A program made the translations under genes and the position numbers. Below are positions 550 to 24,882 of a stretch of 32,624 nucleotides of DNA, one piece after another. The stretch comes from a virus, in the IMG/VR virus record IMGVR_UViG_3300037327_000103, positions 1-32,624 of that record; one strand, written 5' to 3'. Numbering within the stretch: the first letter of the stretch is position 1; every line of letters begins with the position of its first letter. The notes below the pieces were generated by a model that ran no database searches, had not been told where the DNA came from, and was given only the letters and a program-made list of their open reading frames with translations.

Positions 550-1038
550 ATGCCGTTTTCAGAAAACACCCCCACGCCGGATGATCTCCAGGCGCTCAGC
601 GCGGCCGAGATCGCGGCCTTGCCGGTCGAACTGCTGGCCATCCTGCAGCACGAGATCGATGCGCGGCTCAAACGCGACAAGGCCGCCAAGGCCCGGCTCG
701 ATGCCGGTCTCGCGGTGCGCTACGCCGATCGCGCTGCTGAGGAACGGCAGGCCGCAGGCAAGGACACGGGCACGACGCGCTTCGATGACGGTGATTTCAC
801 CATCGTGGCTGACCTGCCCAAGCGGGTCGATTGGGATCAGGACAAGCTCGCCGCGATGGTCGCGCGCATTCGCGATGCCGGTGACGACCCCGCACAATAT
901 GTCGACATCGCCATCAAGGTGCCGGAGCGCAAATACGCGGCCTGGCCCGACGCGATCCGGAAAGGCTTCGAGCCCGCGCGGACCGTGCGCACCGGCACGC
1001 TCAAGGTCGAGCTTCTCTCTCAGGGAGGCGATCAATGA
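550..1038 (+). CDS. hypothetical phage protein, 162 aa
   Basis: It starts at ATG 550 behind AAGGAGG (536-542). The N-terminal 70 residues are predicted helical and rich in Ala, Lys and Arg (LKRDKAAKARLDAG), followed by a mixed region with TIVADLPKRVDWDQ and a short basic C-terminus. Its TGA overlaps the ATG of the following ATPase gene (ATGA at 1035-1038), which suggests translational coupling with the recombination module. It could be an accessory factor of that module; no domain is recognised. Confidence 0.72.
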   Translation: MPFSENTPTPDDLQALSAAEIAALPVELLAILQHEIDARLKRDKAAKARLDAGLAVRYADRAAEERQAAGKDTGTTRFDDGDFTIVADLPKRVDWDQDKLAAMVARIRDAGDDPAQYVDIAIKVPERKYAAWPDAIRKGFEPARTVRTGTLKVELLSQGGDQ

Positions 1039-1883
1039 GCCTGCGCATTCTCACCGCCGATGAGCGCCTGCGCGAGGCGCAGGGCAAGACCACCATGGCG
1101 ATCTTTGGCCCGAGCGGGGGTGGCAAGACGACCCTCCTGACCACCATGCCCGAGGAGCAAACCGTCTGCCTCGACTTTGAAGCGGGTCTCAAATCGGTGC
1201 AGGGCTGGAAAGGCGACAGCATCTCGATCCGTCGCTTTGCCGATGCGGTCGATATCGCCTGCCTGATCGGTGGCGCAAACCCGGCGGCCCAACCGGAAGA
1301 GCATTTCTCCGAGGCCCATCATGCGCACCTGCGCGGGCTGCATCCCGAGCTAGCCGCGCGGCTCGACACCAAGCGCATCGTCTTCGTCGACAGCATCACC
1401 GATCTGACGCGCCAGGCGATGGCATGGGCCAAGACCCGACCCGAGGCGCTGTCGGACCGCACCGGGAAACCCGACACACGCGGCGCCTACGGGCTTCTGG
1501 CGCGCGAGGTCATCGGCCTGCTGAAGCATCTTCAGCATGCGCCGGGGCGCACCGTCATCTTCGTCGGCATCCTCGAGAAGGTCGTCGACGACATGAACAG
1601 GGTGACGTTCCAGCCGCAGATGGAAGGCGGCAAGGCCGCGCGCGAACTGCCGGGCATCGTCGATCAGGTCATGACGCTCGACCTCTTCACGCAGGAAGAG
1701 GGCGCGGAGGGCGCGCGCAGCTGGCGTCATGATCCCGACAAGGGCACCGCGCGCCGCCTCGTCTGCCAGTCCGCCAACCCCTGGGGCCTGCCCGCCAAGG
1801 ATCGCTCGGGCCGTCTCGACCTGACCGAACCCGCCGATCTCGGCGCGCTTCTCACCAAGATCAACCAAACCCCGAAAGGATAA
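1035..1883 (+). CDS. phage AAA/RecA-fold ATPase, Sak4-like
   Basis: This 282-residue protein has a Walker A motif GPSGGGKT at residues 25-32, directly after a short N-terminal strand, and a Walker B strand IVFVDS at 115-120, the architecture of the compact phage nucleotide-binding proteins (AAA_24 type). Sak4-like members of this group are RecA-related annealing proteins that work with a single-strand binding protein. The next gene here is SSB-like and a PD-(D/E)XK nuclease follows two small genes later, which fits a recombination module. The ATPase fold is secure; the annealing role is inferred from context and family. It overlaps the upstream gene by 4 bp. Confidence 0.8.
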   Translation: MSLRILTADERLREAQGKTTMAIFGPSGGGKTTLLTTMPEEQTVCLDFEAGLKSVQGWKGDSISIRRFADAVDIACLIGGANPAAQPEEHFSEAHHAHLRGLHPELAARLDTKRIVFVDSITDLTRQAMAWAKTRPEALSDRTGKPDTRGAYGLLAREVIGLLKHLQHAPGRTVIFVGILEKVVDDMNRVTFQPQMEGGKAARELPGIVDQVMTLDLFTQEEGAEGARSWRHDPDKGTARRLVCQSANPWGLPAKDRSGRLDLTEPADLGALLTKINQTPKG

Positions 1884-1888
1884 TCCCC

Positions 1889-2650
1889 ATGACCTTCGAC
1901 ATGAACGACGTCGCACCGCAGCAATCCGGCGACCTGATCCCGGACGGCACCTTCGCCAAGGTGACCATGTCCATCCGCAAGGGCGGCACGGACGGGATGA
2001 GCGAGGTGGATCGCGGGCTGCTGAAACCCTCGAACCAGCCGGGCAGCGATGTGCTGATGGTGGATGCCGAGTTCACCGTGGCCGAGGGCCGGTTTGCCCG
2101 GCGTAAGTTCTGGCAGAACTTCACCGTGCAGGGCGGCAAGCTCGACGAGCAGGGCCAGTCGATCGGCTGGAAAATCTCCAAGAGCCAGTTCCGGGCCATG
2201 ATCGACAGCGCGCTTGGGCTCAACCCCGAGGACATGAGCGAGGGCGCCAAGGCCAAGCGCATGCTGCGCGGGCTGGCCGATCTCGACGGGATCACCTTTG
2301 TCGCGAAGATCCAGATCGAGGCGAACCGGAACCCCGCCTACAAGGATGCCAACAAGCTCGACCATGTGGTGCTGCCGACGGCGCCCGAGTGGCAGAAGGT
2401 CATGTCGGGCGAAGCGGTGCCCACGCAGCCGTCCCAGAAGCCGCGGCCCGCTGCCGCTCCGGCGCAGCCCGCTGCCCCGGCATGGGGTCAGTCGCAACCC
2501 GCTGCCGCGCCAACCGCACCGGCCTGGACTACACCGGCCTCGACGCAACAGCCGGCCACGCAGCCCACGCAAGCGCCGCAACCAGAGAGCGGCCCACAGC
2601 CGTCGCACGGTTCTCAGCCGTCGCAGGGCCCGGCCTGGTTGAACCCGTGA
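1889..2650 (+). CDS. single-stranded DNA-binding-like phage protein
   Basis: A 253-residue protein with a folded N-terminal part (about 1-175, strand-rich, including VDAEFTVAEGRFARRKFWQNF) and a low-complexity tail (about 176-253) of Pro, Ala, Gln, Ser and Thr ending in PAWLNP. This resembles DUF669-type phage proteins thought to act as SSBs, which often neighbour Sak4-like ATPases: an OB-like body plus a disordered tail. The tail lacks the acidic tip of bacterial SSBs, so partner recruitment would differ. It starts 5 bp after the ATPase gene. The function is inferred from position and shape rather than from a diagnostic motif. Confidence 0.6.
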   Translation: MTFDMNDVAPQQSGDLIPDGTFAKVTMSIRKGGTDGMSEVDRGLLKPSNQPGSDVLMVDAEFTVAEGRFARRKFWQNFTVQGGKLDEQGQSIGWKISKSQFRAMIDSALGLNPEDMSEGAKAKRMLRGLADLDGITFVAKIQIEANRNPAYKDANKLDHVVLPTAPEWQKVMSGEAVPTQPSQKPRPAAAPAQPAAPAWGQSQPAAAPTAPAWTTPASTQQPATQPTQAPQPESGPQPSHGSQPSQGPAWLNP

Positions 2651-2880
2651 GCCCGGACGAATGGCAGGCGCATGTCACCACGGAGGCGGCGCTCGCGATG
2701 GGGCGCTGGCTCGAGGCGCGGGGGCGGCTCGACCGCCCCATCGCCGGCCTCACGCGAAAGGATCTCGAATGCATGGCATCAAACGCGATCGGCCGCTTCA
2801 TCTTACTGGCCTCGGAGCGTCGGACGGAGGCGCCCGACCCGGAGGAACGCGCAAAGCTGGACCTTCTGCTTATGGGGTGA
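2647..2880 (+). CDS. hypothetical phage protein, 77 aa (GTG start)
   Basis: The GTG at 2647 overlaps the stop of the SSB-like gene (GTGA, 2647-2650) and gives a 77-residue protein beginning VSPDEWQAHVTTEAALAMGRW. It is mostly helical with no membrane segment. In-frame codons upstream of the GTG fall inside the low-complexity tail of the preceding gene and are unlikely to be used. Its own stop overlaps the next GTG in the same manner, so three genes are chained by 4-bp overlaps. No function is recognised. Confidence 0.6.
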   Translation: MSPDEWQAHVTTEAALAMGRWLEARGRLDRPIAGLTRKDLECMASNAIGRFILLASERRTEAPDPEERAKLDLLLMG

Positions 2881-3245
2881 CGCGCGCTGACCTCGCCCGC
2901 CGTGTGCCCTGCGCGCTCTGCGGACGGGAAGCGCACGGCTTCGGCTACTGTCACCAATTGCGATGGGACCGCCATCCCCACCACCGATTTTGCTCGATGG
3001 CCTGCCTCACAGCGGGCAGCGCCATCGCCAGGAGAAACCACGGAATGATCGACAAGACCGACATGGAAGCCCGCGCGATCTTTGAGGCGCGCCGCAACCT
3101 CGCTGAAGCGCTCACCGAAATGGACCTGATGGAGCCCTTCTTCGACCGGCCGGCCGAGGACATCGACTGCCTGATCGAGGCCTGCGTCGAGGGCTTTCAG
3201 GCCTCGATGCGGCGCCAGTCCGATGCCGGCGAAATTCCTTTTTGA
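2877..3245 (+). CDS. zinc-finger-like small phage protein (DUF6511-like)
   Basis: Starts at GTG 2877 inside the previous stop (GTGA). The 122 residues begin with a Cys/His-rich segment: CALC near residue 11, a Cys in FGYCHQ, histidines in DRHPHHRF and then CSMAC, which together could hold one or two zinc ions. The rest is helical and acidic (EARRNLAEALTEMDLMEPFF). It resembles the small DUF6511-type proteins I recall from rhodobacterial prophages; that family name is from memory. It sits just before the Fe-S nuclease gene, whose start lies 13 bp beyond its stop. Confidence 0.62.
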   Translation: MTRADLARRVPCALCGREAHGFGYCHQLRWDRHPHHRFCSMACLTAGSAIARRNHGMIDKTDMEARAIFEARRNLAEALTEMDLMEPFFDRPAEDIDCLIEACVEGFQASMRRQSDAGEIPF

Positions 3246-3258
3246 GCCGGAGACCAGC

Positions 3259-4032
3259 ATGCTCGACCTCAACCACAAATCCGGCTTCGTCTATGGGCGT
3301 GAGGCTTCGGAGCCCGAGCCCCTCGGGGCGCGGATCAACAGCCGCATCGACGCAGCACTTGTTGCGGAGCGCGACACGCAGCGCCCGCGCGACTATCTCG
3401 GCGCCAGCCGCATCGGCGAGCCCTGCGCGCGCCGCCTCGTCTATGAATTCACCAGGACACCGGTCGATCCGGGCAAGGAATTCGAGGGGCGCACGCTGCG
3501 CATCTTCAAGGCCGGTCACGTGTTCGAGGATCTCGCCATCCGCTGGCTGCGCACAGCGGGGTTCGACCTGCGCACCGAAAGGCGCGACGGCGGCCAGTTT
3601 GGCTTCGAGACGGCAGGCGGGCGCATTCGCGGTCATGTCGATGGCGTGATCGTCAGTGGCCCGGAGATGGGGCTCACCTGGCCGGTGCTCTGGGAACACA
3701 AGGCGCTGAAGGCCTCATCCTGGTCCGACACGGCGAAGAAGGGTGTGCAGATCTCGAAGCCCGTCTATTACGGCCAGTTGCAGATCTACATGGCTTATAT
3801 GGGCCTAGCCTCCGCGCTCTTCACCGCGCTGAACAAGGACAGCTGCGAGCTTTACCACGAGCATGTGCCGTTCGACCCAGGCGCCGCGCAGGCGCTGTCG
3901 GACAAGGCGGTGGACGTGCTGCGCGCCGCGGACGCGGGCGATCTGCTGCCACGCATCGCCGTTCATGCCGATTTTTATCTCTGCCGGTTCTGCCCCTTCA
4001 GCGCCCGGTGCTGGTCGGAGGGTCACGCATGA
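3259..4032 (+). CDS. PD-(D/E)XK exonuclease with Cas4/AddB-type Fe-S cluster
   Basis: A 257-residue nuclease of the RecB/Cas4 superfamily. The active-site set is visible: GHVDG with Asp128, WEHKA with Glu146 and Lys148, and the following Q-x3-Y motif (Gln173, Tyr177). Cys56 near the N-terminus plus C242-x2-C245-x5-C251 near the C-terminus reproduces the four-cysteine [4Fe-4S] arrangement of Cas4 and AddB. I prefer ATG 3259, which has GGAGA 5 bp upstream, over ATG 3223, which overlaps the preceding gene and has no ribosome site. It probably resects phage DNA ends for the Sak4/SSB pair. Its stop overlaps the helicase start. Confidence 0.82.
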   Translation: MLDLNHKSGFVYGREASEPEPLGARINSRIDAALVAERDTQRPRDYLGASRIGEPCARRLVYEFTRTPVDPGKEFEGRTLRIFKAGHVFEDLAIRWLRTAGFDLRTERRDGGQFGFETAGGRIRGHVDGVIVSGPEMGLTWPVLWEHKALKASSWSDTAKKGVQISKPVYYGQLQIYMAYMGLASALFTALNKDSCELYHEHVPFDPGAAQALSDKAVDVLRAADAGDLLPRIAVHADFYLCRFCPFSARCWSEGHA

Positions 4033-5312
4033 GTCTCACGCTTTCGGAGGCGCAAACGCGCGCCATTGCCGCCATCCGCGACTGGTATCTGCACCGCACC
4101 CACGCGCAGCAGGTGTTCCGGGTGTTCGGCTACGCAGGGGTCGGAAAGACCACCATCACCGCCATGGCGATCGAGGCGCTCGGCCTCCGGCCGATGACGC
4201 CCGGCGGTCTGGGCGGCGTGATCTTCGCCGCCTTCACCGGCAAGGCCGTCCATGTGATGACGCAGAAGGGCACGCCGGCCCAGACGATTCACAGCCTTAT
4301 CTATCGCTTCTCCGAGGCCACACCCGACGAAATCGCCCGCGTGACCGAGGAACTGGCGGCGCTGGAGCGCGACCTGCCGCGCATGGGCGTGGCTGAGCGC
4401 AGCTTTGCCGAGACCCAGATCAGACAGCTGAAGTTCAGGCTCGATCACATCCATGAACCGCGCTTCGTGCTGAACACGCAATCCGCCCTGCGCGATGCGG
4501 ACCTGCTCGTGCTCGACGAGGTCTCGATGGTGGGCACGGACATGGCACAGGACCTCATGGCCTTCGGCAAGCCGATCTTGGTGCTGGGCGATCCGGGCCA
4601 GCTGCCGCCCGTGAAGGATACCGGTTTTTTCACCGAGGCCACACCTGACGTGATGCTCACCGAGGTGTATCGGCAGGCCGCCGAGAGCCCGATCCTGCAG
4701 CTGGCCACCCTCGCGCGCGAGGGCCGCGACATTCCCTTCGGCGCGTTCGACGATCAGGTCTGGAAGATGTCGCGCCACGAGGTGAGCCCGGCGCAGATGC
4801 TGCAAGGCGGCCAGGTGATCTGCGGCACGCACGCCACGCGGCGGCGGCTCAACACCGCGATGAAGGGCGCTGCCGGGTTCGAGGCCGATTATCCCGCAGG
4901 GGCCGGCGAAAAGATCATCTGTCTGCGCAATCGCCATGATCTTGGGCTGATCAACGGCATGTTCCTGCATCTGTCGGACGTGCAGGCGCATCCCCGCAAC
5001 GACCGGGCGTTTCGCGCCACAGTGCGCACCGAGGACGGCACCTGCATCTCGGGCGCGCAGGATTTCTGGCGCGGGGAATTCGACGACCATGTGCGCTTCG
5101 ATCCCGACCGCCATCGCCGCGAATGGATGGCGTGCCGCGGGCTGATCCAGTCCAGCTGGGGCTACGCGATCACCTGCCACAAGAGCCAGGGAAGCCAGTA
5201 CCCCACCGTGATCGTCGTGGATGACGGCTTCGGGCACACCGCCGAGGACCGCAAACGCTGGCTCTACACCGCAATCACCCGGGCCGAACACGGCCTGCTG
5301 ATCCTTGCCTGA
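4029..5312 (+). CDS. RecD-like superfamily 1 helicase/ATPase
   Basis: A 427-residue protein with helicase motifs in order: Walker A GYAGVGKT (34-41), Walker B LLVLDEVSM (about 160-168), GDPGQLPPV (about 187-195, motif III) and CHKSQGSQYPTVIV (about 383-396) with a C-terminal AITRA, the UvrD_C_2 signature. This is the layout of RecD/ExoV-alpha and Dda-like 5'-3' helicases. The ATG at 4029 overlaps the nuclease stop (ATGA); an upstream ATG at 4008 lies inside that gene and has no better ribosome site. Its coupling to a nuclease gene suggests they act on the same DNA ends or forks. Confidence 0.88.
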   Translation: MSLTLSEAQTRAIAAIRDWYLHRTHAQQVFRVFGYAGVGKTTITAMAIEALGLRPMTPGGLGGVIFAAFTGKAVHVMTQKGTPAQTIHSLIYRFSEATPDEIARVTEELAALERDLPRMGVAERSFAETQIRQLKFRLDHIHEPRFVLNTQSALRDADLLVLDEVSMVGTDMAQDLMAFGKPILVLGDPGQLPPVKDTGFFTEATPDVMLTEVYRQAAESPILQLATLAREGRDIPFGAFDDQVWKMSRHEVSPAQMLQGGQVICGTHATRRRLNTAMKGAAGFEADYPAGAGEKIICLRNRHDLGLINGMFLHLSDVQAHPRNDRAFRATVRTEDGTCISGAQDFWRGEFDDHVRFDPDRHRREWMACRGLIQSSWGYAITCHKSQGSQYPTVIVVDDGFGHTAEDRKRWLYTAITRAEHGLLILA

Positions 5313-5324
5313 AGGAGGCCACGC

Positions 5325-8261
5325 ATGAGTGCCACCGTGATCGATCTCAACGACGCCATGCCGTCGCGGCCGCAACCGGAACGCTACGATCTGGACCTGA
5401 TCGTCCAGCGTCTGCGCGAGACGGCGGAGCATTGGGTGCCGCGGCTGTTCCCAAATGGACGCCGTGTTGGCGACGAATGGCGGCTGGCCAATATCCGCGG
5501 CGACGCACCGCGCAATACCGGCTCCTGCGTCATCACCCTGCGCGGGCCGCATGCCGGGGACTGGATCGACTTTGATGGCAATGAGGGCGGCGGGCCGATC
5601 AGTGCCATCGAGGCGGCAACGGGGCTCGATGGGCGGGACCTGATCGTCGAGGCGGCGGAGATGGCCGGCGTTCAGTCCGGTGCCCCCGCGCGCCAGGCCC
5701 CCGCAGCCAAACCCGCGCCAAAGCGCGACGCGTCCCAGGACATCGCGCATATCCTGTCGAAAGCCGTGCCCATCACCGGCACCTCAGCCGCGGCCTATCT
5801 GCAGGCCCGCGGCCTTGCGCTGCCGGACGCGCCCGATCTGCTGTTTCATTCCGATCTGACGCATTGGGAGACGAAGACCGGCTATCCGGCGCTTCTCGGC
5901 CAGGTGCGCGATCGCAGCGGCGATGTGATCGGGCTGCACCGTACCTACATCGTTGAAGCCGGCAACGAAGTGCGCAAGGCGCCGGTCACCAAGCCGAAGA
6001 TGATGCTCGGGCGCGTGGCCGGTGGCGCCGTGCAGCTCGCACAGCTCGGGAATGGCGACCGGCTGGCGCTGTCAGAGGGCATCGAGACCGGGCTCGCCGT
6101 GATGACCGCCTGTCCGGACCTGGCGGTATGGGCGACGCTGTCGACCTCCGGTCTCGAACAGATCGATTTGCCTCCCGCCGCACAGCGCGTGCTGATCCTC
6201 GCCGACCATGACGTCTCCGGCGCCGGTCTGCGGGCCGCCGAAGCCGCCGCCCGGCGCTTGCGGGCGCAGGGGCGCGATGTCGCCATCGCGATCCCACCGG
6301 AGGAAGGGCAGGACTTCAACGACCTGTTGTTGCGCGACGGGGCCAAGGCCGTCGCCGCCCTGATCGAGGACGCGGAGGCCGTCACCGAGACCGAGGCGGT
6401 CCTGCAGATCGGCCAGCACCGGCCGGTCAATTATCAGGGCAGCGGCGAGGCCATGCCCACCCTGCGCGCCGACGAAGGCGATCTGGGCCGTTCGGTCTCC
6501 CAGGCCTGGAGCGTGATCATGGCCTCCAATCGCACGCCATGGGTCTATCGCTTCGCAGGCCAGCCCACATGGGTGGTCCCCGACGACGAGGGGCGCCCGG
6601 TGGCCACCATGCTCAACGAGGAACGCCTGCGCCACATGCTGGCGCGGCTGGCCCGCTGGGTGCGCGAAACTTCGAAGGGCGAATTGCTGCCTGCGCCGCC
6701 GCCCGTCGCGGTCGTCAAATCCGTGCTGGCCACGCCCGATCCGGCGCTGCCGGTGCTCACCGGTATCGTCAACACGCCGGTCTTCGGGCGCACCGGCACG
6801 CTGATCACCACGCCAGGATACCACCCGGACGCACGGTTGCTCTACGTGCCCGCGCCCGGGTTCACCGTGCCGGAGATCCCTACCCGACCGGGTGCAGAGG
6901 ATATCGCGGCCGCGCGCAGGCTGATCTGCAAGGACCTGCTCGGCGACTTCCCCTTCACCGGCGAGGCCGAGCGCGCGCATGTCGTGGCCCTCCTGCTGCT
7001 CGGCTTCCTGCGTGGCATGATCGACGGGCCGACGCCGCTGCACCTGATCGAAAAGCCCACGCCCGGCACCGGCGCCACACTGATGGTAGATGCGATCGCC
7101 ACGATCCTGACCGGCACCGGTGCCAGTGTCATGACCGAGGGGCGCGACGATGAGGAATGGCGCAAGCGCGTCACCGCCAAGCTGCGCCAGATCCCCTCGA
7201 TCATCCTGATCGACAACCTGCGTGCCAAGCTCGACAGCGCGGCCGTTGCCGCGGCCCTCACCGCCCCCTTCTGGGAGGATCGTGTGCTCGGGGTCTCGGA
7301 AATGACCCGGCTGCCGATCCGCTGCCTCTGGATCGCGACCGGCAACAACCCCGAGTTCTCCAACGAGATGGCGCGCCGCCTCGTGCGCATCCGGCTCGAT
7401 GCCAATATCGAACGCCCCTGGCAACGCGGCGGGTTCCGCCATCCCGATCTCATGGTCTGGGTGCGCGCCAATCGCGCCCGGCTTGTCGCGGCCTGCCTGA
7501 CGCTGTGCCAGGCTTGGATCGCCGCCGGCAAGCCGCGCGGCAAGAAGACCATCGGCTCCTACGAGAACTGGGCGCAGATCGTCGGCGGCGTGCTCGAAAC
7601 CGCCGGCATCCCCGGCTTTCTCGGAAATCTCGAGGAGATGATGGAAGCGTCCGATAACGAGGGGGCCGCGTGGAACGGGTTCATCGCAAGCTGGTGGGAC
7701 CGGTTCGGGACCGCAGAGGTGGGAGCAAACGATGTGCTTGACCTCGCGATAGTCGCAGACCCGAAGCTCCCGGTGGGCCGCCCGGGCAAGACTGTCGACA
7801 CGGCAGAACTCGGTCGTGGGATCAGTCGGATGCGAGACCGTGTTTTCGATGTGGATGGGCGGAAGCTGCAATTGAAGTTCAGCAGGATGCTGCGGCGCTC
7901 GCAACGCTGGGTTCTGACGCTCACCGCGGACCGCTCGCGCCAATCTCCTTCAGCAGGGTGTGAGGTGTGTGAGGAGGGGTGTGAGGATAAAAACGTCGCA
8001 CCTCACACATCCAAGCCATTGGATACGCAACAGAAAACGGAAGGGTGTGAGGTGTGTGAGGTAAATTCCCGTACCCTTACGCATGCGGGCACGCGCGCAC
8101 ACGCGAAGGAGAGGCCGGAAAACACCTCACATTCCTCACATTCCTCACACAGGCCCATAAAATCAGAGACTTATGGGTGTGAGGATGGGTGTGAGGCAGA
8201 TTTGCCCTCCTCACACAGCCCCGACCTGGTGCCTGACTGGCTCAGGGAGGTGCTCGAATGA
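5325..8261 (+). CDS. Toprim primase fused to helicase-like ATPase
   Basis: The 978-residue replication protein starts behind GGAGG at 5315-5319. Residues 20-115 resemble the N-terminal primase region of this phage family but lack a CHC2 zinc set. The Toprim domain follows, with LSEGIETG (about 248) and LADHDVSG (about 290), then DFNDLLL. The C-terminal half (about 530-780) looks like a D5/AAA-type ATPase: KPTPGTGAT in the Walker A place (no Lys after the Gly), IILIDNL as Walker B and ATGNNPEF as sensor. The last 100 residues are an unusual Cys-Glu/Ser-His repeat encoded by GTGTGAGG iterons. It should prime and unwind phage DNA. Confidence 0.85.
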   Translation: MSATVIDLNDAMPSRPQPERYDLDLIVQRLRETAEHWVPRLFPNGRRVGDEWRLANIRGDAPRNTGSCVITLRGPHAGDWIDFDGNEGGGPISAIEAATGLDGRDLIVEAAEMAGVQSGAPARQAPAAKPAPKRDASQDIAHILSKAVPITGTSAAAYLQARGLALPDAPDLLFHSDLTHWETKTGYPALLGQVRDRSGDVIGLHRTYIVEAGNEVRKAPVTKPKMMLGRVAGGAVQLAQLGNGDRLALSEGIETGLAVMTACPDLAVWATLSTSGLEQIDLPPAAQRVLILADHDVSGAGLRAAEAAARRLRAQGRDVAIAIPPEEGQDFNDLLLRDGAKAVAALIEDAEAVTETEAVLQIGQHRPVNYQGSGEAMPTLRADEGDLGRSVSQAWSVIMASNRTPWVYRFAGQPTWVVPDDEGRPVATMLNEERLRHMLARLARWVRETSKGELLPAPPPVAVVKSVLATPDPALPVLTGIVNTPVFGRTGTLITTPGYHPDARLLYVPAPGFTVPEIPTRPGAEDIAAARRLICKDLLGDFPFTGEAERAHVVALLLLGFLRGMIDGPTPLHLIEKPTPGTGATLMVDAIATILTGTGASVMTEGRDDEEWRKRVTAKLRQIPSIILIDNLRAKLDSAAVAAALTAPFWEDRVLGVSEMTRLPIRCLWIATGNNPEFSNEMARRLVRIRLDANIERPWQRGGFRHPDLMVWVRANRARLVAACLTLCQAWIAAGKPRGKKTIGSYENWAQIVGGVLETAGIPGFLGNLEEMMEASDNEGAAWNGFIASWWDRFGTAEVGANDVLDLAIVADPKLPVGRPGKTVDTAELGRGISRMRDRVFDVDGRKLQLKFSRMLRRSQRWVLTLTADRSRQSPSAGCEVCEEGCEDKNVAPHTSKPLDTQQKTEGCEVCEVNSRTLTHAGTRAHAKERPENTSHSSHSSHRPIKSETYGCEDGCEADLPSSHSPDLVPDWLREVLE
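7958..8216. repeat. GTGTGAGG iteron array, candidate replication origin
   Basis: Twelve 8-bp units lie in 259 bp. Forward GTGTGAGG begins at 7958, 7967, 7979, 8045, 8054, 8177 and 8189. The inverse CCTCACAC begins at 8001, 8143 and 8209, with the variant CCTCACAT at 8125 and 8134. Units in clusters are 9 or 12 bp apart. The array includes an inverted repeat CCCATAA (8154-8160) / TTATGGG (8171-8177) and short AT-rich gaps. It lies within the 3' end of the primase gene, as the lambda origin lies inside gene O. The copy at 8001 is read in another codon phase, which argues for a DNA-level signal. Origin function is inferred. Confidence 0.6.
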
Positions 8262-8388: not shown

Positions 8389-8925
8389 ATGGCTGATACG
8401 ACTCTCGCCGACGCCAACCTCGGCGCAACCCCGAAAACGCCCATGCCGCCTGAGCCCGCGCGCACCATCCTTGCGCTCGATCTCGGCACCACGACCGGCT
8501 GGGCGCTGCGCGGCCATGACGGGCTGATCACCAGCGGAACAGCATCGTTCAGGCCCGGCCGCTTCGATGGCGGCGGCATGCGGTATCTGCGCTTCACCAA
8601 CTGGCTGACCGAGCTGGACCGGCTGTCTGGCCCGATCGCGACGATCTGGTTCGAGGAAGTGCGCCGCCACGCAGGCACCGACGCAGCCCACGTCTTTGGT
8701 GGACTGCTTGGTGTGCTGACCAGTTGGGCGGAATTGCGCGGCGTTCCCTATCAAGGCGTACCCGTTGGCACGATCAAAAAATATGCCACCGGTCGCGGCA
8801 ACGCCAACAAGCAGGCAATGATCGACGCGGCCCGCGCCCGTGGGTTCAGCCCGGCCGACGACAACGAGGCCGACGCCATCGCCATTCTGCTCTGGGCCAT
8901 CGAGACCCGGGGAGGTGCGGTATGA
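8389..8925 (+). CDS. RuvC-like Holliday junction resolvase
   Basis: 178 residues with an RNase H/actin-like fold signature. The first strand TILALDLGTTTGWAL carries Asp31, the strand IWFEEV supplies Glu89/Glu90, and the C-terminal DDNEADAIAI (Asp158, Glu160, Asp162) completes the acidic cluster expected of RuvC-type nucleases. ATG 8389 is chosen because AAAAGGAGA lies 6 bp upstream. The long frame reaching back to 8173 overlaps the primase and is not needed. In phages such enzymes resolve recombination intermediates or debranch DNA before packaging. The 127 bp before it (8262-8388) shows no clear gene. Confidence 0.8.
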   Translation: MADTTLADANLGATPKTPMPPEPARTILALDLGTTTGWALRGHDGLITSGTASFRPGRFDGGGMRYLRFTNWLTELDRLSGPIATIWFEEVRRHAGTDAAHVFGGLLGVLTSWAELRGVPYQGVPVGTIKKYATGRGNANKQAMIDAARARGFSPADDNEADAIAILLWAIETRGGAV

Positions 8926-9116
8926 GCTTCCACCCGAAAGGCTACGGCGGTCACCGCCGCGATCCCGAACAGGTCAAGCGCGACGGTTGGCACGACCAGC
9001 AGATGCTGGCTGTGTCGCTGGACGACCACCGCCTCACCTGGCCCGAGCGCGAACTGGTTCGGCAACTGGGCGAGCGGCTCTATGGCAAGCGGCAGGAGGA
9101 CCGACGTCATGGCTGA
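8922..9116 (+). CDS. hypothetical phage protein, 64 aa
   Basis: The ATG at 8922 overlaps the resolvase stop (ATGA). The product is small, charged and probably soluble, with His/Arg-rich N-terminal (KGYGGHRRDPEQVKRDGWHDQQ) and a helical C-terminal segment. It overlaps the next gene by 8 bp. It has no recognised domain; small basic proteins in this place could bind DNA, but nothing visible proves that. Confidence 0.6.
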   Translation: MSFHPKGYGGHRRDPEQVKRDGWHDQQMLAVSLDDHRLTWPERELVRQLGERLYGKRQEDRRHG

Positions 9117-9555
9117 CTGGACCACGGGCCGCGTGCAGGACCGGCTGGAGCTGGCCGCAGACGTGTTCGCGCAACTGCCCGGCGTGAAGCCCACGGGCTA
9201 CTTCAACGCCTGGCCCGAGTATTTCCACAGCTTCGCCGATCATGTGGGGCAAGAGCCGGAAACGCGCCGCCCGCGCCCTACCCCGCGCCAGATCACCGAA
9301 GCCGAGGAGGCGATGCTCTGGCTGCGCTGGCTGGAGCGTGACGACGCGCGCATCGTCTGGCTGCGCGCAAGGGGCAAGCCGTGGAAGAAGATCACCTGGG
9401 AGATCGGGCTCAGCCGTCCGGCCGCCAACCGCCACTGGCAGTACGGCGTCGCGCTGATCACCTGGCGGCTCCATGGCCGCGTGCCATCATCGCGGCGCTC
9501 GAGGCGGTTCGTGATCGACAACGCCGACAGCCTGTCAAGGAAAATCATCCTGTGA
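9109..9555 (+). CDS. DUF6362-like protein with helix-turn-helix character
   Basis: 148 residues starting at ATG 9109 behind CAGGAGGA (9093-9100). The conserved core is EEAMLWLRWLERDDARIVWLRA (about 65-86), then KPWKKITWEIGLSRPAANRHW (about 90-110), which reads as a helix-turn-helix of the kind found in sigma-like or late-regulator proteins. I recall this as DUF6362, common in rhodobacterial prophages before the methyltransferase and terminase genes; the number is from memory. A role in activating later genes is plausible given the structured intergenic region that follows, but is not shown. Confidence 0.62.
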   Translation: MADWTTGRVQDRLELAADVFAQLPGVKPTGYFNAWPEYFHSFADHVGQEPETRRPRPTPRQITEAEEAMLWLRWLERDDARIVWLRARGKPWKKITWEIGLSRPAANRHWQYGVALITWRLHGRVPSSRRSRRFVIDNADSLSRKIIL

Positions 9556-9669
9556 CGGAATTTTCGGGGAGACATCCCGTGGGGTTCACCAAGCCGGCCT
9601 CGGGGCCTACAAATGGGTTATGCTCGCACGAGGCGTGAGCGACGGGACACCACGACACGACTGGATTCC

Positions 9670-10034
9670 GGGGTCCACCCGGGGTCCAGTTGGGAATCCA
9701 GAAGGGGACACGATGGCACGAGAGCGGCGACAGTTCGACCCCGGGCAAACGGTGACCGGTTGACCGGAAAAACCATCTCCGCCACCCGCTAAGTCATTGA
9801 TTTCACGGTTCCTTTCTGTGCACTTCGTATGCTGGCGGGCGTGGCGCAAAATGTCGCCAGCGACAGGGCCGATTTTTTGGGAAGCCACCGGTGTCCAGCA
9901 TCCAGCTACGACACCCTGAAAGCTTCGTGATTTCAAAGACCTGACCGGCCGCGCGGGGTGGATACCCCGCGGACTTCGGAGTCCAGCCGGAAGCCGGTGG
10001 CCCCCACCGCGGAGTCCACCCGTGGGGGAGTCCA
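9670..10034 (+). repeat. six direct copies of GGNGTCCA
   Basis: GGGGTCCA occurs at 9670-9677 and 9681-9688, GGTGTCCA at 9890-9897, and GGAGTCCA at 9978-9985, 10011-10018 and 10027-10034, all in the same orientation. The first two lie in the loop of an inverted repeat, and the last three overlap the hairpins upstream of the methyltransferase gene. A repeated, same-strand octamer confined to a non-coding stretch suggests a protein or RNA recognition site. Its role is unknown. Confidence 0.5.
9952..10028 (+). promoter_or_regulatory. three successive hairpins before the methyltransferase gene
   Basis: CGCGGGGT (9952-9959) pairs with ACCCCGCG (9964-9971) around a GGAT loop. GGACT (9971-9975) pairs with AGTCC (9980-9984) around TCGG. 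CCCCCAC (10001-10007) pairs with GTGGGGG (10022-10028). They lie 43-119 bp before the ATG at 10071, so would be in its leader RNA if transcription starts upstream. No T-tract follows, so these are not classical terminators. Attenuation or protein binding is possible. Confidence 0.4.
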
Positions 10035-10070: not shown

Positions 10071-11405
10071 ATGACGCTGAGCTTCGCCCCGGAGCGGATC
10101 GAGCACTGGCCGCTCGCGCGCCTGCAGCCTTACGCGAAGAACGCGAAGCAGCACGGGCCCGACCAGGTCGCGAAGCTCGCTGCCAGCATGGCCGAGTTCG
10201 GCTGGACCGTGCCGTGCCTCGTGGGCGAGGACGGCGAGCTGATCGCCGGCCACGGGCGGGTGCTGGCCGCGACGCAACTTGGGCTGACCGAGGCGCCGGT
10301 GATCGTGCTCGGGCACCTGACCGAGGCGCAGCGCCGGGCCTATCGTTTGGCCGACAATAAATTGACCGAACTCGGAACATGGGACGAGGCGCTGCTGTCG
10401 GCGGAACTGAACGAGCTGCTGGCCGACGACTACGACCTGTCGCTGGTCGGCTTTTCCGACGGCGAACTCGACAAGCTGCTGGCCTTCGATACGGACGTGG
10501 GCGGCGGAGAAGAAGGTAGCGCCGGGGGCTCCGTGCCTCCGCTGACCATCCCCGAGCCACCGCGCAATCCGGCCTCGCGGACAGGCGACCTGTGGATCCT
10601 CGGCGATCATCGGCTGCTCTGCGGGGACAGCACGAACCACGAAGATGTCCGCCGTCTGATGAACGGCGAGCGCGCGGTGCTGTTTGCGACCGACCCTCCG
10701 TATCTCGTCGACTACGACGGATCGAACCACCCGACGCGGAACAAGGACTGGAGCCAGTCCTACGGCGTCACTTGGGACGACAGCAGCCAAGGGGCCGAAC
10801 TCTACGACGGGTTCATAGCGGCCGCCGTCGCCGAGGCGATCACCGAGGACGCCGCCTGGTACTGCTGGCACGCCTCGCGCCGGCAGGCGATGCTGGAGGC
10901 CTGCTGGGAGAAAGCCGGCGCCTTCGTCCACCAGCAGATCATCTGGGTGAAGGACCGCGGGGTTCTCACCCGGTCGCATTACCTCTGGAAGCACGAGCCC
11001 TGCTTCATGGGCTGGCGCCGACCGAACCGCCCGCCGAAGGTTGCCGAGCAGACGTTGCCCTCGACTTGGGAGATGCCGTCCTTCGCCAAGGACGACCGGC
11101 CCGACCACCCGACGCCGAAACCGCTCGACGCTTTCGGGATCCCGATGCGCCAGCACGTCGCCCGTGGAGGGCTCTGCTACGAGCCGTTCGCTGGCTCGGG
11201 CTCGCAGATCATGGCGGGTGAGGCCAACGGCCGGCGCGTCTTCGCAATGGAGATCAGCCCGGCTTACGTCGATGTCGCCGTAGAGCGCTGGCAGGCCGAG
11301 ACCGGCAGGGACGCGATCCTCGATGGCGACGGTCGGACCTTCGCGCAGGTGAAAGCCGAGCGGCTGGGCGAGACCACGGCAGCAGGCGCCGATGCCGCTG
11401 CCTGA
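10071..11405 (+). CDS. ParB-domain/DNA adenine-or-N4-cytosine methyltransferase fusion
   Basis: A 444-residue fusion. Residues 1-130 are a ParB/sulfiredoxin-like domain (LARLQPYAKNAKQH, then ELIAGHGRVLAA). Residues about 180-425 are an amino-methyltransferase with DPPY (about 208-211, catalytic motif IV) before YEPFAGSGS (about 369-377, AdoMet-binding motif I), the beta-class order. EISPAYVDVAVERW near the end is the usual last motif. The enzyme should methylate adenine N6 or cytosine N4 in a short target; the target cannot be read from sequence. Its stop shares one base with the next start (TGATG), so it is coupled to a second methyltransferase. Anti-restriction protection is the likely benefit. 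Confidence 0.88.
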   Translation: MTLSFAPERIEHWPLARLQPYAKNAKQHGPDQVAKLAASMAEFGWTVPCLVGEDGELIAGHGRVLAATQLGLTEAPVIVLGHLTEAQRRAYRLADNKLTELGTWDEALLSAELNELLADDYDLSLVGFSDGELDKLLAFDTDVGGGEEGSAGGSVPPLTIPEPPRNPASRTGDLWILGDHRLLCGDSTNHEDVRRLMNGERAVLFATDPPYLVDYDGSNHPTRNKDWSQSYGVTWDDSSQGAELYDGFIAAAVAEAITEDAAWYCWHASRRQAMLEACWEKAGAFVHQQIIWVKDRGVLTRSHYLWKHEPCFMGWRRPNRPPKVAEQTLPSTWEMPSFAKDDRPDHPTPKPLDAFGIPMRQHVARGGLCYEPFAGSGSQIMAGEANGRRVFAMEISPAYVDVAVERWQAETGRDAILDGDGRTFAQVKAERLGETTAAGADAAA

Positions 11406-12397
11406 TGGCCGTCTACTACAACGATGCCGACCCCTTGGCCTGCGCATGGCTGCGGGAATTGATCGCGGCCGGGCTGCTGCCGGATGGCGACGTGGACGAG
11501 CGGTCCATCCTCGAAGTGGAGCCCACCGACCTGCGCGGCTTCGCGCAGTGTCATTTCTTCGCCGGAATCGGCGGCTGGCCCTACGCACTACGCCTCGCCG
11601 GCATAGCCGAGAATCTGTCCGTCTGGACCGGCTCGCCGCCCTGCCAGCCATTCAGCCAGGCCGGGCAGCGCAAGGGACAGGACGATGACCGCCATCTCGC
11701 CCCGGCCTTCCTGCGGCTCGTCGCAGCCTGCCGCCCGGAGTTCGTCTTCGGCGAGCAGGTCGCGAGCGCGGCAGTGCTCGGACCAGTTGGCAGCGCGACT
11801 CGCACAGCGGCTGAGGGCCCGGCTGGCTGGGCGTGGTTCGACGCTCTGGCTTCTGACCTGGAAGCGGCATCTTACACCGTCGCGGCGGCCGATCTGCCGG
11901 CTGCGGGCATCGGCGCTCCGCACATCCGCCAGCGGCTGTTCTTCGGCGCCGCCGCCCTGGAGCCGGGCGGGCTGGGCAACGGCCTCAGCGCGGGATCACA
12001 AGGACGGATCGGAATGCCGGGCGGTGCCGATCAACGCGCTACTCGGCCGGCAGGTCTGGCTGGCGGGCTGGCCGACGGCGATGGCGGGCTCGCCCGCGAC
12101 GGCAGCGTACAACGCGGCGGGCAACACGGATGCGAGCCGCAGGACGGTAAAGCTGGTCGACTGGTCGAAGGTGACGACCCCACCGGCGCCGATGCGACGG
12201 ACGGCGTCTGGCGAGATCCGGACTGGCTCCTCTGCCGCGATGGCCGCTGGCGGCCCGTTGAGCCCGGAACATTCCCGCTGGTTGATAGGATATCCGGTCG
12301 CATGGGGCTGCTGCGGGGCTACGGCAATGCGATCGTGCCGCCGCTCGCGGCGGAGTTCGTGACGGCGTTTCTGGAGAGCCTGCCGGAGGGGCTGTGA
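11405..12397 (+). CDS. DNA cytosine-C5 methyltransferase
   Basis: 330 residues with motif I FAGIGG (about 52-57), motif IV GSPPCQPFS (about 76-84, catalytic Cys), GEQV in the motif VI place (usual ENV altered), GAPHIRQRLFF (motif VIII region) and motif X GYGNAIVPP near the C-terminus. The ATG at 11405 overlaps the previous stop. Between about residues 195 and 265 the sequence is Gly/Asp-rich and poorly conserved-looking, the variable target-recognition region. The DNA from 11685 on is also open in another frame that matches a common phage protein type (separate entry). It probably protects phage DNA with the preceding methyltransferase. Confidence 0.85.
   Translation: MAVYYNDADPLACAWLRELIAAGLLPDGDVDERSILEVEPTDLRGFAQCHFFAGIGGWPYALRLAGIAENLSVWTGSPPCQPFSQAGQRKGQDDDRHLAPAFLRLVAACRPEFVFGEQVASAAVLGPVGSATRTAAEGPAGWAWFDALASDLEAASYTVAAADLPAAGIGAPHIRQRLFFGAAALEPGGLGNGLSAGSQGRIGMPGGADQRATRPAGLAGGLADGDGGLARDGSVQRGGQHGCEPQDGKAGRLVEGDDPTGADATDGVWRDPDWLLCRDGRWRPVEPGTFPLVDRISGRMGLLRGYGNAIVPPLAAEFVTAFLESLPEGL
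11685..12362 (+). CDS. alternative-frame ORF nested in the C5 methyltransferase gene
   Basis: 225 codons lie wholly inside the methyltransferase gene in a different frame. The translation is not random-looking. It contains CSDQLAARLAQRL, STLWLLTWKRHLTPSRRPIC, RASALRTSASGC, WPTAMAGSPATAAYNAAGNT and LSPEHSRWLIGYPVAWGCCG. From memory these match the distal part of a widespread phage family annotated as DNA methylase (RRTSxSGxxxWPTP... LNPAHSRWLMGxPxxW). The main frame over the same DNA carries normal C5-methyltransferase motifs, so both frames look conserved. The ORF may be an overlapping gene, a frameshift product or a relic. A weak AAGGGA lies about 10 bp before the ATG. Confidence 0.4.
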   Translation: MTAISPRPSCGSSQPAARSSSSASRSRARQCSDQLAARLAQRLRARLAGRGSTLWLLTWKRHLTPSRRPICRLRASALRTSASGCSSAPPPWSRAGWATASARDHKDGSECRAVPINALLGRQVWLAGWPTAMAGSPATAAYNAAGNTDASRRTVKLVDWSKVTTPPAPMRRTASGEIRTGSSAAMAAGGPLSPEHSRWLIGYPVAWGCCGATAMRSCRRSRRSS

Positions 12398-22425: not shown

Positions 22426-23850
22426 TCAACCAGCACAGCAAGACAGCTTCGCGACATCCATGTCGAAGGTCTGAGCGGCGAGCTTCAGGCCCTCGACTGT
22501 GGTCAGATAGGGAAAGATCGTCTCGCCGAGCGCCTTCGTCGTCATGCCGAACTTCAGCGCCATGGCCAGCGTCTGAACGCTGTCGGCCCCTTCCGGCGCC
22601 ATGATCACGCCGCCCAGCAGGCGGTCCGTCTGCGCATCTGCGACCAGCTTGATCCGCCCCCGCGTGTCGCGGGCGGCGAGCGCGCGGGGCACGTTGTCGA
22701 GGTCAAGCACGCTTGTCTTCACGTCATGGCCGGCGTCGCGCGCGTCCGCCTCGGTCAGGCCAACGCCCGCGACCTGCGGATCGGTGAATACCACCCACGG
22801 CATCGCCGCGTTGTCGTAGCGCTCGGCGCCGTCCAGCACGGCGTTGCGGGCCGCGAGCTTTGCGCCGTAGGCCGCCATGTAGACGAACTGGTCGCGGTCC
22901 GCGACGTCGCCTGCCGCATAGATGCCGGGGCGTGTCGTGGCCATGTCGTCGCCGACCCTGATCGTGCCGCGCGCGTCGGTCTCGACGCCCATTTCGGCCA
23001 GGCCCAGCCCCTCGGTGTTGGGCGCGCGTCCCGTGGTCAGGACGAGATGGTCGGCCGTCAGTTCGCGGACGGTCCCGTTCCGCGTGACCGACAGGAGCGC
23101 GCCGTCATCCACCTCTCGTGCAGCCTCGTAGCGAACGCCGTCGAGGATCGTCAGACCCTCTTCCCGCAAGACCTCCGTGAGCGCCTCGGACACCTCCGGC
23201 TCGGTGCGCGGCAGCAGGCGCGACCGGCAGACGATGGTCACGCGGACGCCCATCCGCGCCATCATCTGCGCCAGTTCCACGCCGATATAGCCGCCGCCGA
23301 GGAAGATCAGGCTCTCGGGCAGCCGCTCCAGTTCCATCAGCGAGGTGCTGTCGAGCGTCGGCACATCCGCAATGCCGGGGATGTCGGGCACTGCGGGCCG
23401 CCCGCCGGTTGCGACGATCACCCTTGGCGCGGCGATCCTGCGCCCGCCGACCTCGACGCCGCCATCCACGAGCCGCGCCGGCCCCTCGTCGACATAGGTG
23501 ACACCGTCGTACTCGGGCAGCAGCTCGGCATATTTCTTCTGTCGCAGGCTTGCGACAAGGTCGTCCTTTGCGCCGATCAGGGCCGCCCAGTCGGTCACCT
23601 GCGAGTCGCCCGACAGTCCGGGGAAACGGCGCGCGGCCTTCGCGCCATGCATGGCCTCGGCCGCGCGGATCATCGTCTTGGAGGGCACGCAGCCCACGTT
23701 CACGCAGGTCCCGCCGATCGTGCCGTGGCCGATCAGCGCGACGCGCTTGCCGCCCTCGACGGCCGTGATCGCGGCCGAGAAGCCGGCCGAGCCCGCACCG
23801 ATGACGGCGAGGTCATAGTCACCCTTGGGCGTGCAGCAATCGTCTTTCAT
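22426..23850 (-). CDS. merA: mercuric reductase
   Basis: 474 residues from the start MKDDCCTPKGDYD at 23850; an ATG at 23862 (overlapping merF) is also possible. It has the FAD-binding GAGSAGFSAAI, the redox disulfide GTCVNVGCVPSK, the NAD(P)H-binding GGGYIGVELAQ, the second FAD motif GIYAAGDVADRDQFVYMAAY, and the MerA-specific C-terminal vicinal cysteines SCCAG. It reduces Hg(II) to volatile Hg(0) in the cytoplasm using NADPH. The N-terminal HMA (NmerA) domain is absent. Last gene of the mer operon, running toward the phage tail completion gene, with 50 bp (22376-22425) between stops. Confidence 0.95.
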   Translation of the reverse strand: MKDDCCTPKGDYDLAVIGAGSAGFSAAITAVEGGKRVALIGHGTIGGTCVNVGCVPSKTMIRAAEAMHGAKAARRFPGLSGDSQVTDWAALIGAKDDLVASLRQKKYAELLPEYDGVTYVDEGPARLVDGGVEVGGRRIAAPRVIVATGGRPAVPDIPGIADVPTLDSTSLMELERLPESLIFLGGGYIGVELAQMMARMGVRVTIVCRSRLLPRTEPEVSEALTEVLREEGLTILDGVRYEAAREVDDGALLSVTRNGTVRELTADHLVLTTGRAPNTEGLGLAEMGVETDARGTIRVGDDMATTRPGIYAAGDVADRDQFVYMAAYGAKLAARNAVLDGAERYDNAAMPWVVFTDPQVAGVGLTEADARDAGHDVKTSVLDLDNVPRALAARDTRGRIKLVADAQTDRLLGGVIMAPEGADSVQTLAMALKFGMTTKALGETIFPYLTTVEGLKLAAQTFDMDVAKLSCCAG

Positions 23851-23854
23851 CAAG

Positions 23855-24088
23855 TCATCCATCCGTTCGAGTGGTCTGGCGCCGCTGCCGCCGCCAGACG
23901 GCATACACCGTCAGCACGACGAAAAAGGCGAGTGCGGGCAGCAGCACATAGTCGAGCCAGCCCAGCCAGGCCGACAGTCCCACGGCGCCGAGAAGCACGA
24001 CCAGGATCGGCGTGAAGCAGCAGAGCGCCACGATGACGGTGCCGACGATCCCTGTCGCGATCAGCTTGCGGTCGGTCTGCTCGGTCAT
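23855..24088 (-). CDS. merF: mercury transport protein MerF
   Basis: 77 residues, two transmembrane helices. The first contains the vicinal pair in VALCCFTPILVVLLGAVGL (Cys23-Cys24), and WLGWLDYVLLPALAFFVVLT forms the second. It carries Hg(II) across the inner membrane. The C-terminus ends RRQRRQTTRTDG and lacks the second cysteine pair seen in the classical MerF, while a CC pair occurs at the start of the adjoining MerA. ATG 24088 is 4 bp after the merP stop; longer starts to 24154 overlap merP and are unlikely. Confidence 0.88.
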   Translation of the reverse strand: MTEQTDRKLIATGIVGTVIVALCCFTPILVVLLGAVGLSAWLGWLDYVLLPALAFFVVLTVYAVWRRQRRQTTRTDG

Positions 24089-24092
24089 CCCG

Positions 24093-24398
24093 TCAGCCCG
24101 CGACCCGCGCCGGGTAGCCCGCATTGGCCGAGGCCGCCGCGATGGCGTCGGCACTGGTCGCGGCGGAGTCGTAGATCACCGTGGCGGTGCGTGCCTCGAA
24201 GTCGATCTCGACAGTGCGCACGCCCGCGACGCCCTCCATCGCACGCTTCACAGTGATCGGGCAGAGCGCGCAGGTCATGTTGTCGACCGCGAACGTGATA
24301 GTCTGCTCCGCGGCGACGGACTGCGCGACCGCAGAAGTGGCGGTCATCGGGGCGACGGCTGTCAGGCCGAACAGTGCAAGGGCAAGGAACTTCTTCAT
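24093..24398 (-). CDS. merP: periplasmic mercury-binding protein MerP
   Basis: 101 residues. A signal peptide (MKKFLALALFGLTAVAP...VAQ, cleavage near residue 26) leads to one HMA domain with NMTCALCP, where Cys43 and Cys46 bind Hg(II) in the periplasm for hand-over to MerT/MerF. KRAMEGVAGVRTVEIDFEAR and the closing AASANAGYPARV are normal for MerP. It lies 18 bp after merT and 4 bp before merF, within one minus-strand operon. Confidence 0.93.
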   Translation of the reverse strand: MKKFLALALFGLTAVAPMTATSAVAQSVAAEQTITFAVDNMTCALCPITVKRAMEGVAGVRTVEIDFEARTATVIYDSAATSADAIAAASANAGYPARVAG

Positions 24399-24416
24399 GA
24401 GGGTGTCCTTCCGGGA

Positions 24417-24806
24417 TCAGTAGAGAAGCGGGGCCCACCAGTCGATGGTGAGTGCTGCGACAACGAGGATCAGCGAGGCCCAGAGTGCGGTCTTGGTGAT
24501 GCGCGCCGATGCTGGCCTTGCGCAGTAGGAACCGGGTTCGCAGACGGTCGGCTTGCGGAAATAGACCTGCCGGAATCCCGCCCCGACGAAGCCGAGCGCG
24601 ATCACGGCGAAGATCGGCTTGTAAGGCTCCAGCGCCGTCAGGTTGCCGATCCAGGCGCCCGAGATGCCGAGGGTCAAAAGCACCAGCGGCCCGATGCAGC
24701 AGGCCGAGGCGAGAAAGGCGCCCAGCACACCGCCTGCCGCAAGCCAGCCCTTTCGGGCGGGGCGATCCGCGCCCGTGCTGTCCGTTCGGTCGTCCGTCAG
24801 CGCCAT
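24417..24806 (-). CDS. merT: mercuric transport protein MerT
   Basis: 129 residues with three hydrophobic segments. The vicinal pair ASACCIGPLVLLTLGISGAW (Cys36-Cys37) lies in the first, and a second pair Cys89/Cys95 (VCEPGSYCA) lies in the loop, as expected for MerT. It moves Hg(II) from MerP into the cytoplasm. I place the start at 24806 (MALTDDRTDS), because the extension to 24884 would run through the operator and promoter. It is the first gene of merTPFA. Confidence 0.93.
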   Translation of the reverse strand: MALTDDRTDSTGADRPARKGWLAAGGVLGAFLASACCIGPLVLLTLGISGAWIGNLTALEPYKPIFAVIALGFVGAGFRQVYFRKPTVCEPGSYCARPASARITKTALWASLILVVAALTIDWWAPLLY

Positions 24807-24837
24807 GTCGCGCACCTCTCGTCTGTGATTTAGGAGA

Positions 24838-24868
24838 GGTGTAGGGTCTGTAGCAACTACAGGCTCAA
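24838..24868 (-). promoter_or_regulatory. mer promoter-operator, MerR type
   Basis: Read on the minus strand, a -35 TTGAGC (24863-24868) and a -10 TACACC (24838-24843) are separated by exactly 19 bp, the over-long spacer typical of MerR-controlled promoters. Inside the spacer lies a perfect dyad CTGTAG (24848-24853), CAA, CTACAG (24857-24862). It sits between the divergent merT and merR starts. This predicts repression without Hg(II) and activation by DNA distortion when MerR binds Hg(II). Confidence 0.8.
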
Positions 24869-24882
24869 GAGGAAACTTGCCC

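Follow-up and report, generated by a model that had tools for sequence, protein, structure and literature searches.

An iteron array within the 3′ end of a viral primase/helicase gene: a probable replication origin whose word covaries with a predicted winged helix

The 32,624-base virus record IMGVR_UViG_3300037327_000103, analysed over its whole length and called the window here, contains a gene for a Toprim primase/helicase whose 3′ end carries 12 copies of a short repeated word (iterons). We conclude that this array very probably serves as the origin of replication of the phage, or as the essential cis element of that origin, and that its reader is the product of the very gene in which it lies. 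An earlier note on this DNA had proposed an origin inside the initiator gene; the conserved layout of the array and its covariation with the winged helix of the primase, as judged from sequence comparison, support that proposal well. A literature search found no description of an origin for this primase family, but subscription papers lay largely outside its scope, which makes it weak evidence of absence.

Iteron array and selection on the DNA

The array occupies the 3′ end of the primase/helicase gene, with seven forward and five inverse copies of TGTGAGG. All iterons listed below were located by word count.

5325..8261, plus strand: initiator gene, Toprim primase/helicase of 978 amino acids with a C-terminal winged helix and an iteron-encoding tail (open reading frame, Pfam, PHROG)
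7958..8216, both strands: iteron array, 12 copies of TGTGAGG in the order >>><>><<<>>< (>, forward; <, inverse)
7958..7965, plus strand: iteron 1, GTGTGAGG
7967..7974, plus strand: iteron 2
7979..7986, plus strand: iteron 3
8001..8008, minus strand: iteron 4, different codon phase
8045..8052, plus strand: iteron 5
8054..8061, plus strand: iteron 6
8089..8105, no strand: alternating purine-pyrimidine (CG/CA) tract that separates forward and inverse clusters, 17 nt
8125..8132, minus strand: iteron 7, ATGTGAGG
8134..8141, minus strand: iteron 8, ATGTGAGG
8143..8150, minus strand: iteron 9
8177..8184, plus strand: iteron 10
8189..8196, plus strand: iteron 11
8209..8216, minus strand: iteron 12

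Our count reproduced the coordinates and copy numbers of the earlier note, as well as its pitches of 9 and 12 bp between paired copies. Ten of the 12 copies are exact GTGTGAGG octamers, and the inverse copies at 8125 and 8134 are ATGTGAGG. The note was also correct that one copy lies in a different codon phase: phase 0 holds the inverse copy at 8001, phase 1 the other four inverse copies and phase 2 every forward copy. All 10 exact octamers of the record fall within 7958-8216, and TGTGAGG occurs once outside the array (3005, inverse) compared with 12 times inside it. With one mismatch allowed, the octamer was found 24 times in the whole record versus 24.9 by chance; the non-random aspect of the octamer is its clustering, not its total count. 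The window contains no second array, as any 7-mer occurs at most five times in every 350-nt stretch away from this one. The note had placed the array around a CCCATAA/TTATGGG inverted repeat. This repeat is present (8154-8160/8171-8177), but we rejected it as a core element; it is probably incidental, because two relatives with the same word, L024 and L172, have no equivalent at that place.

Homologous loci (designated L plus a number) were compared next to the window. We kept 223 loci with the domain end, which yielded 128 distinct tails. In 125 of these, one 8-bp word recurs 5 to 15 times (median 11) on both strands; no word was assigned to L173, L179 and L181, which have 2-3 copies. The register of the word was set by hand for 11 loci (the window, L024, L123, L172, L176, L068, L105, L157, L159, L160 and L169) by comparison with related words, and this was not done blind, since the alignment had already been inspected. 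Across homologues the word takes about 20 versions of the format G[G/T]G[A/G/T]NNNT, including GTGAACCT, GGGAACGT, GGGAACCT, GTGAGCCT, GGGGACCT, GTGAATGT, GGGAGGAT and GGGGGTCT, and also GTGAACGT; deviations from it are one C at position 1 and an end left open in the group to which the window belongs. The order of the copies is conserved, the four commonest patterns being versions of >><>>><<<>><.

The earlier note had proposed to check whether homologues conserve the octamer while the surrounding protein tail varies. This test failed as worded, because homologues alter the octamer and the amino acids with it. Among 80 homologues, only L001-L003 and L024 contained 9-10 exact copies at the 3′ end, and L017 and L041 each contained a single exact octamer; the octamer was therefore rejected as the conserved motif. 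What is conserved is the architecture, that is, the number, order, orientation and pitch of the copies, and the word covaries with the winged helix. A switch of word alters the forward copies together with the inverse copies, so that the forward-copy peptide Cys-Glu-Pro becomes Gly-Glu-Pro, Gly-Gly-Pro and others, and the inverse-copy peptide Gly-Ser-Gln becomes Gly-Ser-Pro or Gly-Pro-Pro. That both sets of copies switch to match is most simply explained by identity at the DNA level.

The tail of the initiator is about 100 amino acids long. It is translated and most copies keep one frame, which is compatible with selection of the repeats at the protein level, for Cys-Glu and Ser-His. However, shuffling the codon order of the window tail gave at most 4 copies of any 7-mer, and resampling its synonymous codons at most 8, versus the 12 observed. 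Likewise, 124 of 124 homologous tails exceeded all 60 of their own codon-order shuffles; the maximum over the shuffles of any tail was 5 copies, and in gene-body segments 6, compared with an observed median of 11. When the protein sequence and the codon usage of the gene were held fixed, 114 of 121 tails exceeded all 100 of their own synonymous resamplings. In the window, TGT accounts for 7 of 7 Cys codons in the tail versus 1 of 6 in the body, and TCA for 6 of 14 Ser codons versus 2 of 32. Copies appear in at least three combinations of orientation and phase in 111 of 125 loci, and the array is retained in three tails with a disrupted frame (L033, L042 and L071). Shuffles, resampling, codon choice and the frame-disrupted tails thus give good support to the earlier claim of selection on the DNA. 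Its companion claim, that the CE and SH peptide repeats are a by-product, also held, as the amino acids change with the word in homologues. As the amino acids follow the word, with forward and inverse copies switching to match, and as distant relatives carry the array outside the gene (see below), selection of the repeats at the protein level is refuted for practical purposes and retains a negligible probability. The tail peptide is largely a by-product of the array, which accounts for the unusual Cys-Glu, Gly-Pro or Ser-His tails seen in proteins of this kind.

Base composition also distinguishes the array. Its GC content is below that of the gene body in 125 of 125 loci (0.579 vs 0.682), and the lowest-GC 200-bp windows of the record fall in it (52.5% at 7981). 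The alternating CG/CA tract has a median length of 28 nt in homologues and measures 17 nt in the window, whereas gene-body segments average 8.5. The longest tract of this kind lies between >> and << in 90 of 125 loci, and for 88 of 121 tails the observed length was reached in at most 5 of 100 synonymous resamplings. We would guess that this tract is a Z-DNA-prone opening element.

Word-residue covariation and the predicted winged helix

Every word position was compared by mutual information with every column in the alignment of the 870-amino-acid core. For every variable word position the best column lay within residues 823-859, in a region of the initiator with the following predicted features.

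7650..7940, plus strand: predicted winged-helix DNA-binding domain, residues 776-872 (AlphaFold2, mean predicted local distance difference test (pLDDT) score 90.7; structure matches with Z 5.3-7.7)
7791..7829, plus strand: residues 823-835, N-cap and third helix; 823, 827 and 831 covary with word positions 5, 6 and 7 (covariation, AlphaFold2)
7893..7901, plus strand: residues 857-859, wing tip, covarying with positions 2 and 4 of the word (covariation, AlphaFold2)

The top columns were 857/858 for position 2, 859 for position 4, 823 for position 5, 827 for position 6 and 831 for position 7. At position 2, His857 occurs with G in 68 of 70 cases (one T, one mixed) and Arg, Gln or Glu857 with T in 55 of 55. 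Ala859 goes with A at position 4 (95/95) and Thr859 with G (12/12). At position 5, A accompanies Arg or Lys823 in 79 of 81 cases, and G accompanies Gln, His, Asn, Thr or Pro823 in all 44. Thr827 is found with C at position 6 (81/84), which Val or Ile at 827 does not fix. Finally, Ile or Met831 occurs with C at position 7 (53/53) and Lys831 mostly with G (40/47).

On a tree of 121 sequences built from residues up to 775 only, the word changes about 50 times. Changes were shared in 16 of 20 cases for position 2 and residue 857 (the neighbouring column 858 shares 17 of 20), 11 of 11 for position 4 and 859, 8 of 13 for position 5 and 823, 15 of 22 for position 6 and 827, and 11 of 18 for position 7 and 831. 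For positions 4 to 7 the named column ranked first of all columns. Hypergeometric p-values for these changes are rough, as branches were treated as equal.

Residue rules were fixed before new loci were collected and were then scored on the new, non-identical tails with at least five copies. They were correct at position 2 in 26 of 27 tails, position 4 in 27 of 28, position 5 in 24 of 27, position 6 in 18 of 30 and position 7 in 17 of 22; two of the rows scored, L363 and L369, are very distant and align badly, and the three misses at position 5 (L278, L282 and L283) result from automatic register choice. When whole clades were left out (85% core identity), the rule was correct for positions 2, 4, 5, 6 and 7 in 118/119, 107/107, 118/120, 105/121 and 98/114 cases, respectively, compared with 67, 98, 76, 68 and 87 for the nearest relative by core in the same sequences. 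These scores indicate that positions 2, 4 and 5 are nearly determined by the protein and positions 6 and 7 partly, and the word of a candidate origin can be predicted from the protein by rule.

In four pairs of loci (L043/L121, L017/L018, L125/L230 and L007/L010) the cores are 96-98% identical, whereas the word and the matching residues differ; the same domain is also altered elsewhere, at 12-20 of 66 positions. The near-single-position natural switches L017/L018, L125/L230 and L043/L121 make winged-helix recognition directly testable. Cores that are 98% identical also occur with a new word and C-terminal domains that differ at 17-27 of 66 positions (17-24 in the pairs L043/L121, L149/L164 and L007/L010). 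From these comparisons, winged-helix domain and array apparently move together as a cassette. Such movement as a block would also be seen if the words were sites of another phage-encoded DNA-binding protein and the primase covaried only indirectly through exchange of the 3′ end. However, linkage leaves unexplained why single columns (i, i+4 and i+8 of helix 3, and the wing tip) lead all others, and why identical pairings of residue and base reappear in different clades; we consider this explanation very unlikely. Even less credible is an explanation that involves no binding protein (a recombination hot spot, a packaging site or homogenisation of the repeats): copies from one genome do resemble each other, as homogenisation would predict, but covariation with five residues of one domain would have no explanation.

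AlphaFold2, run on 57 sequences (the window and its loci), predicted the order helix-helix-helix-strand-strand-strand for residues 776-872, with the mean pLDDT of 90.7 listed above. In this model helix 3 comprises residues 826-835 and contains 827 and 831, residue 823 immediately precedes it, and strands 846-856 and 859-866 flank the wing tip with 857-858. Foldseek returned no match to the model at E values up to 0.001. A second structural comparison returned winged-helix proteins, including Zalpha domains, with Z up to 7.7; 1KA8, the origin-binding winged helix of the P4 alpha type, was absent among the matches listed, and searching solved structures by sequence gave no useful hit. Z values below 8 are too low to name a family and may reflect the common fold only. 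The covarying residues, which were found independently, fall on the two canonical DNA-contact elements of this fold, and no other single argument for direct binding is as strong. From the sequence comparisons we strongly infer that the winged helix binds the words.

The array as a candidate origin

Because the putative binder is a primase/helicase, the array points to replication initiation. In the mechanism that we propose, the winged helix (residues 776-872) would bind each iteron, with positions 5-7 of the word read by helix 3 residues 823, 827 and 831, and positions 2 and 4 by the wing tip (857-859). Several protomers would bind the inverted clusters around the low-GC centre with its alternating CG/CA tract, load the helicase-like domain and open the DNA, and the Toprim domain would then prime synthesis. 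Physical binding, melting, helicase loading and the start of replication are steps that we infer from the computed patterns.

The earlier note compared this arrangement with lambda. In lambda the origin iterons lie inside the O coding sequence, in the middle of the gene, and O is not a primase-helicase. The placement of an origin within the initiator gene stood as a likeness of arrangement, but the window iterons are at the 3′ end, and P4 alpha with crr or the Pri-Rep-ori unit of phage-inducible chromosomal islands (PICIs) is a closer model than lambda O. PMC4234260 describes P4 alpha as binding the repeats of the P4 origin through a winged helix and then unwinding and priming. Just 3′ of alpha, the P4 record contains crr, whose annotation is 'cis required region for replication' and in which ten 8-bp type 1 repeats (consensus GGTGAACA) are annotated, in pairs at 9-bp pitch and in both orientations. 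Both proteins combine a Toprim_3 primase, a helicase-like region and a C-terminal winged helix (a predicted one in the window protein), and PF13362, phrog_510 and phrog_2249 match both. The arrays share 8-bp iterons, 9-bp pairs, both orientations and a location on the 3′ side of the gene, and the P4 core GTGAAC is identical to the first six positions of GTGAACCT and GTGAACGT, two words of the family. In contrast to P4, the window has a single array that lies inside the reading frame, and its family has about 20 words. An initiator of the P4 alpha type would have a superfamily 3 helicase with D5_N or DUF5906 and a canonical Walker A, unlike the window initiator, whose Walker A is GTGAT without the usual lysine and in which D5_N, DUF5906 and Pox_D5 found no match. 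As homology to the P4 alpha winged helix was not found, we describe the system as working like P4 alpha/crr rather than as a member of that group.

PICIs, including the Staphylococcus aureus pathogenicity islands, likewise pair a primase/initiator with an iteron origin, which PMC6092414 places immediately 3′ of the gene; the window differs in that its array is inside the gene and that the carriers are phages or prophages. A precedent for the covariation comes from geminiviruses, whose iterons, unlike those of the window, are not inside the 3′ end of the gene. Their Rep is the rolling-circle endonuclease of single-stranded DNA plant viruses. In the iteron-related domain of Rep, as described in PMC2974675, initiator residues covary with iteron bases and specificity is switched by exchange of a small segment, and both the comparative approach and the switch parallel our findings.

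Distant relatives place the array outside the gene. In L359, L361, L362, L363, L376, L379 and L384, a both-strand array of another word starts at most 53 bp past the initiator stop codon. Among 12 distant relatives of the helicase half, the first six of these loci have an array of at least 7 copies just past the stop, and six have none (L328, L360, L369, L377, L378 and L380). L384, an archaeal virus record (vir525) assigned to Methanosarcinales, has a phrog_10537 gene followed by an iteron array (3761-4094) with a centre of 17% GC; the arrangement of gene and array may reach archaea. RpAliso (L382) and phiAsp2 (L383) had no array in the stretch examined (at most 4 and 5 copies), and in ten relatives of the Toprim half alone no 7-mer exceeded 5 copies. 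The simplest history suggested by the arrays past the stop codon is an extension of the reading frame into the array within the family of the window.

The words might instead be bound by the primase winged helix for control (autoregulation, copy control or incompatibility), with replication starting elsewhere. Covariation proves binding at most, and P4 has both crr beside alpha and a separate annotated rep_origin with the same repeats. However, the window has no second array, and the position just 3′ of the initiator in distant relatives is that reported for PICI origins in PMC6092414. We regard control without origin function as unlikely. Several points nevertheless weigh against our preferred interpretation of the array as the origin. 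The annotated P4 rep_origin (9086-9809) is separate from the crr array, which leaves room for the window array being an essential cis element rather than the start point. Comparison by hhalign of the helicase profile with P4 alpha gave 0.2%, i.e., no homology, and the winged-helix profile found no match in the P4 alpha C-terminus. Word positions 6 and 7 are predicted in part only. The GC-skew check suggested in the earlier note gave a 1-kb cumulative minimum at 8-9 kb, which is weakly consistent with an origin here but too shallow to count. Lastly, the record has no completeness estimate and may be a fragment.

The array provides a candidate origin for alphaproteobacterial prophages with this primase, and the exchanges suggest that phages may switch replication specificity as a cassette. 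A broader account is possible, although we hold it tentatively and would not expect every part to survive. In it, the origin was swallowed by the reading frame of the initiator; the word switched about 50 times on the tree through a cassette of about 600 bp (winged helix plus array), probably in escape from incompatibility with related phages; the pairings amount to a natural residue-to-base code for a winged helix; and the conserved, Z-DNA-prone CG/CA tract serves for opening or loading instead of an AT-rich element.

Remaining initiator domains and neighbouring genes

The N-terminal part of the initiator contains two further annotated regions.

5730..6344, plus strand: DUF7146 and Toprim_3 primase region, residues 136-340 (Pfam, E 7.6e-28 and 1.6e-19)
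6576..7649, plus strand: helicase-like (P-loop ATPase-like) region, residues 418-775 (phrog_10537, E 3.6e-92; weak AAA match)

Pfam matched DUF7146 at residues 136-238 and Toprim_3 at 247-340, and PHROG matched phrog_510 ('DNA primase') at 70-352 and phrog_10537 at 418-844. The AlphaFold2 model of the helicase-like region had poor confidence (mean pLDDT 59.4) and was set aside. A Walker A motif resembling GTGA[T/S/G]L, without the usual lysine, is present in the window protein, in 20 of 20 sequences of one alignment and in L177, L382, L359, L360 and L363; that of L377 is GSGKSL. The initiator ATPase may use another lysine or be degenerate. Full-length relatives occur in viral contigs and in genomes of many alphaproteobacteria, including, by record title, Paracoccus, Rhodovulum, Roseomonas, Jannaschia and Shimia. 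Of 50,697 phage records, 71 matched the initiator, none of them over 80% of the protein.

Recombination genes adjoin the initiator (1035-4032 and 8392-8925) and encode a Sak4-like annealing protein, a phrog_2300 protein of unknown function, a Cas4-domain exonuclease and a RuvC-like resolvase. Two adjacent DNA methyltransferase genes (10071-11405 and 11405-12397) follow downstream of the replication genes, one of the N6/N4 type with a weak ParB_N match and one of the C5 type. Within the phage structural region, 22426-25308 holds what we take, by eye from the translations, to be a mercury-resistance-like group, presumably made up of reductase-like, transport-like and metal-binding-like proteins on the minus strand and a MerR-like regulator on the plus strand (24877-25308).

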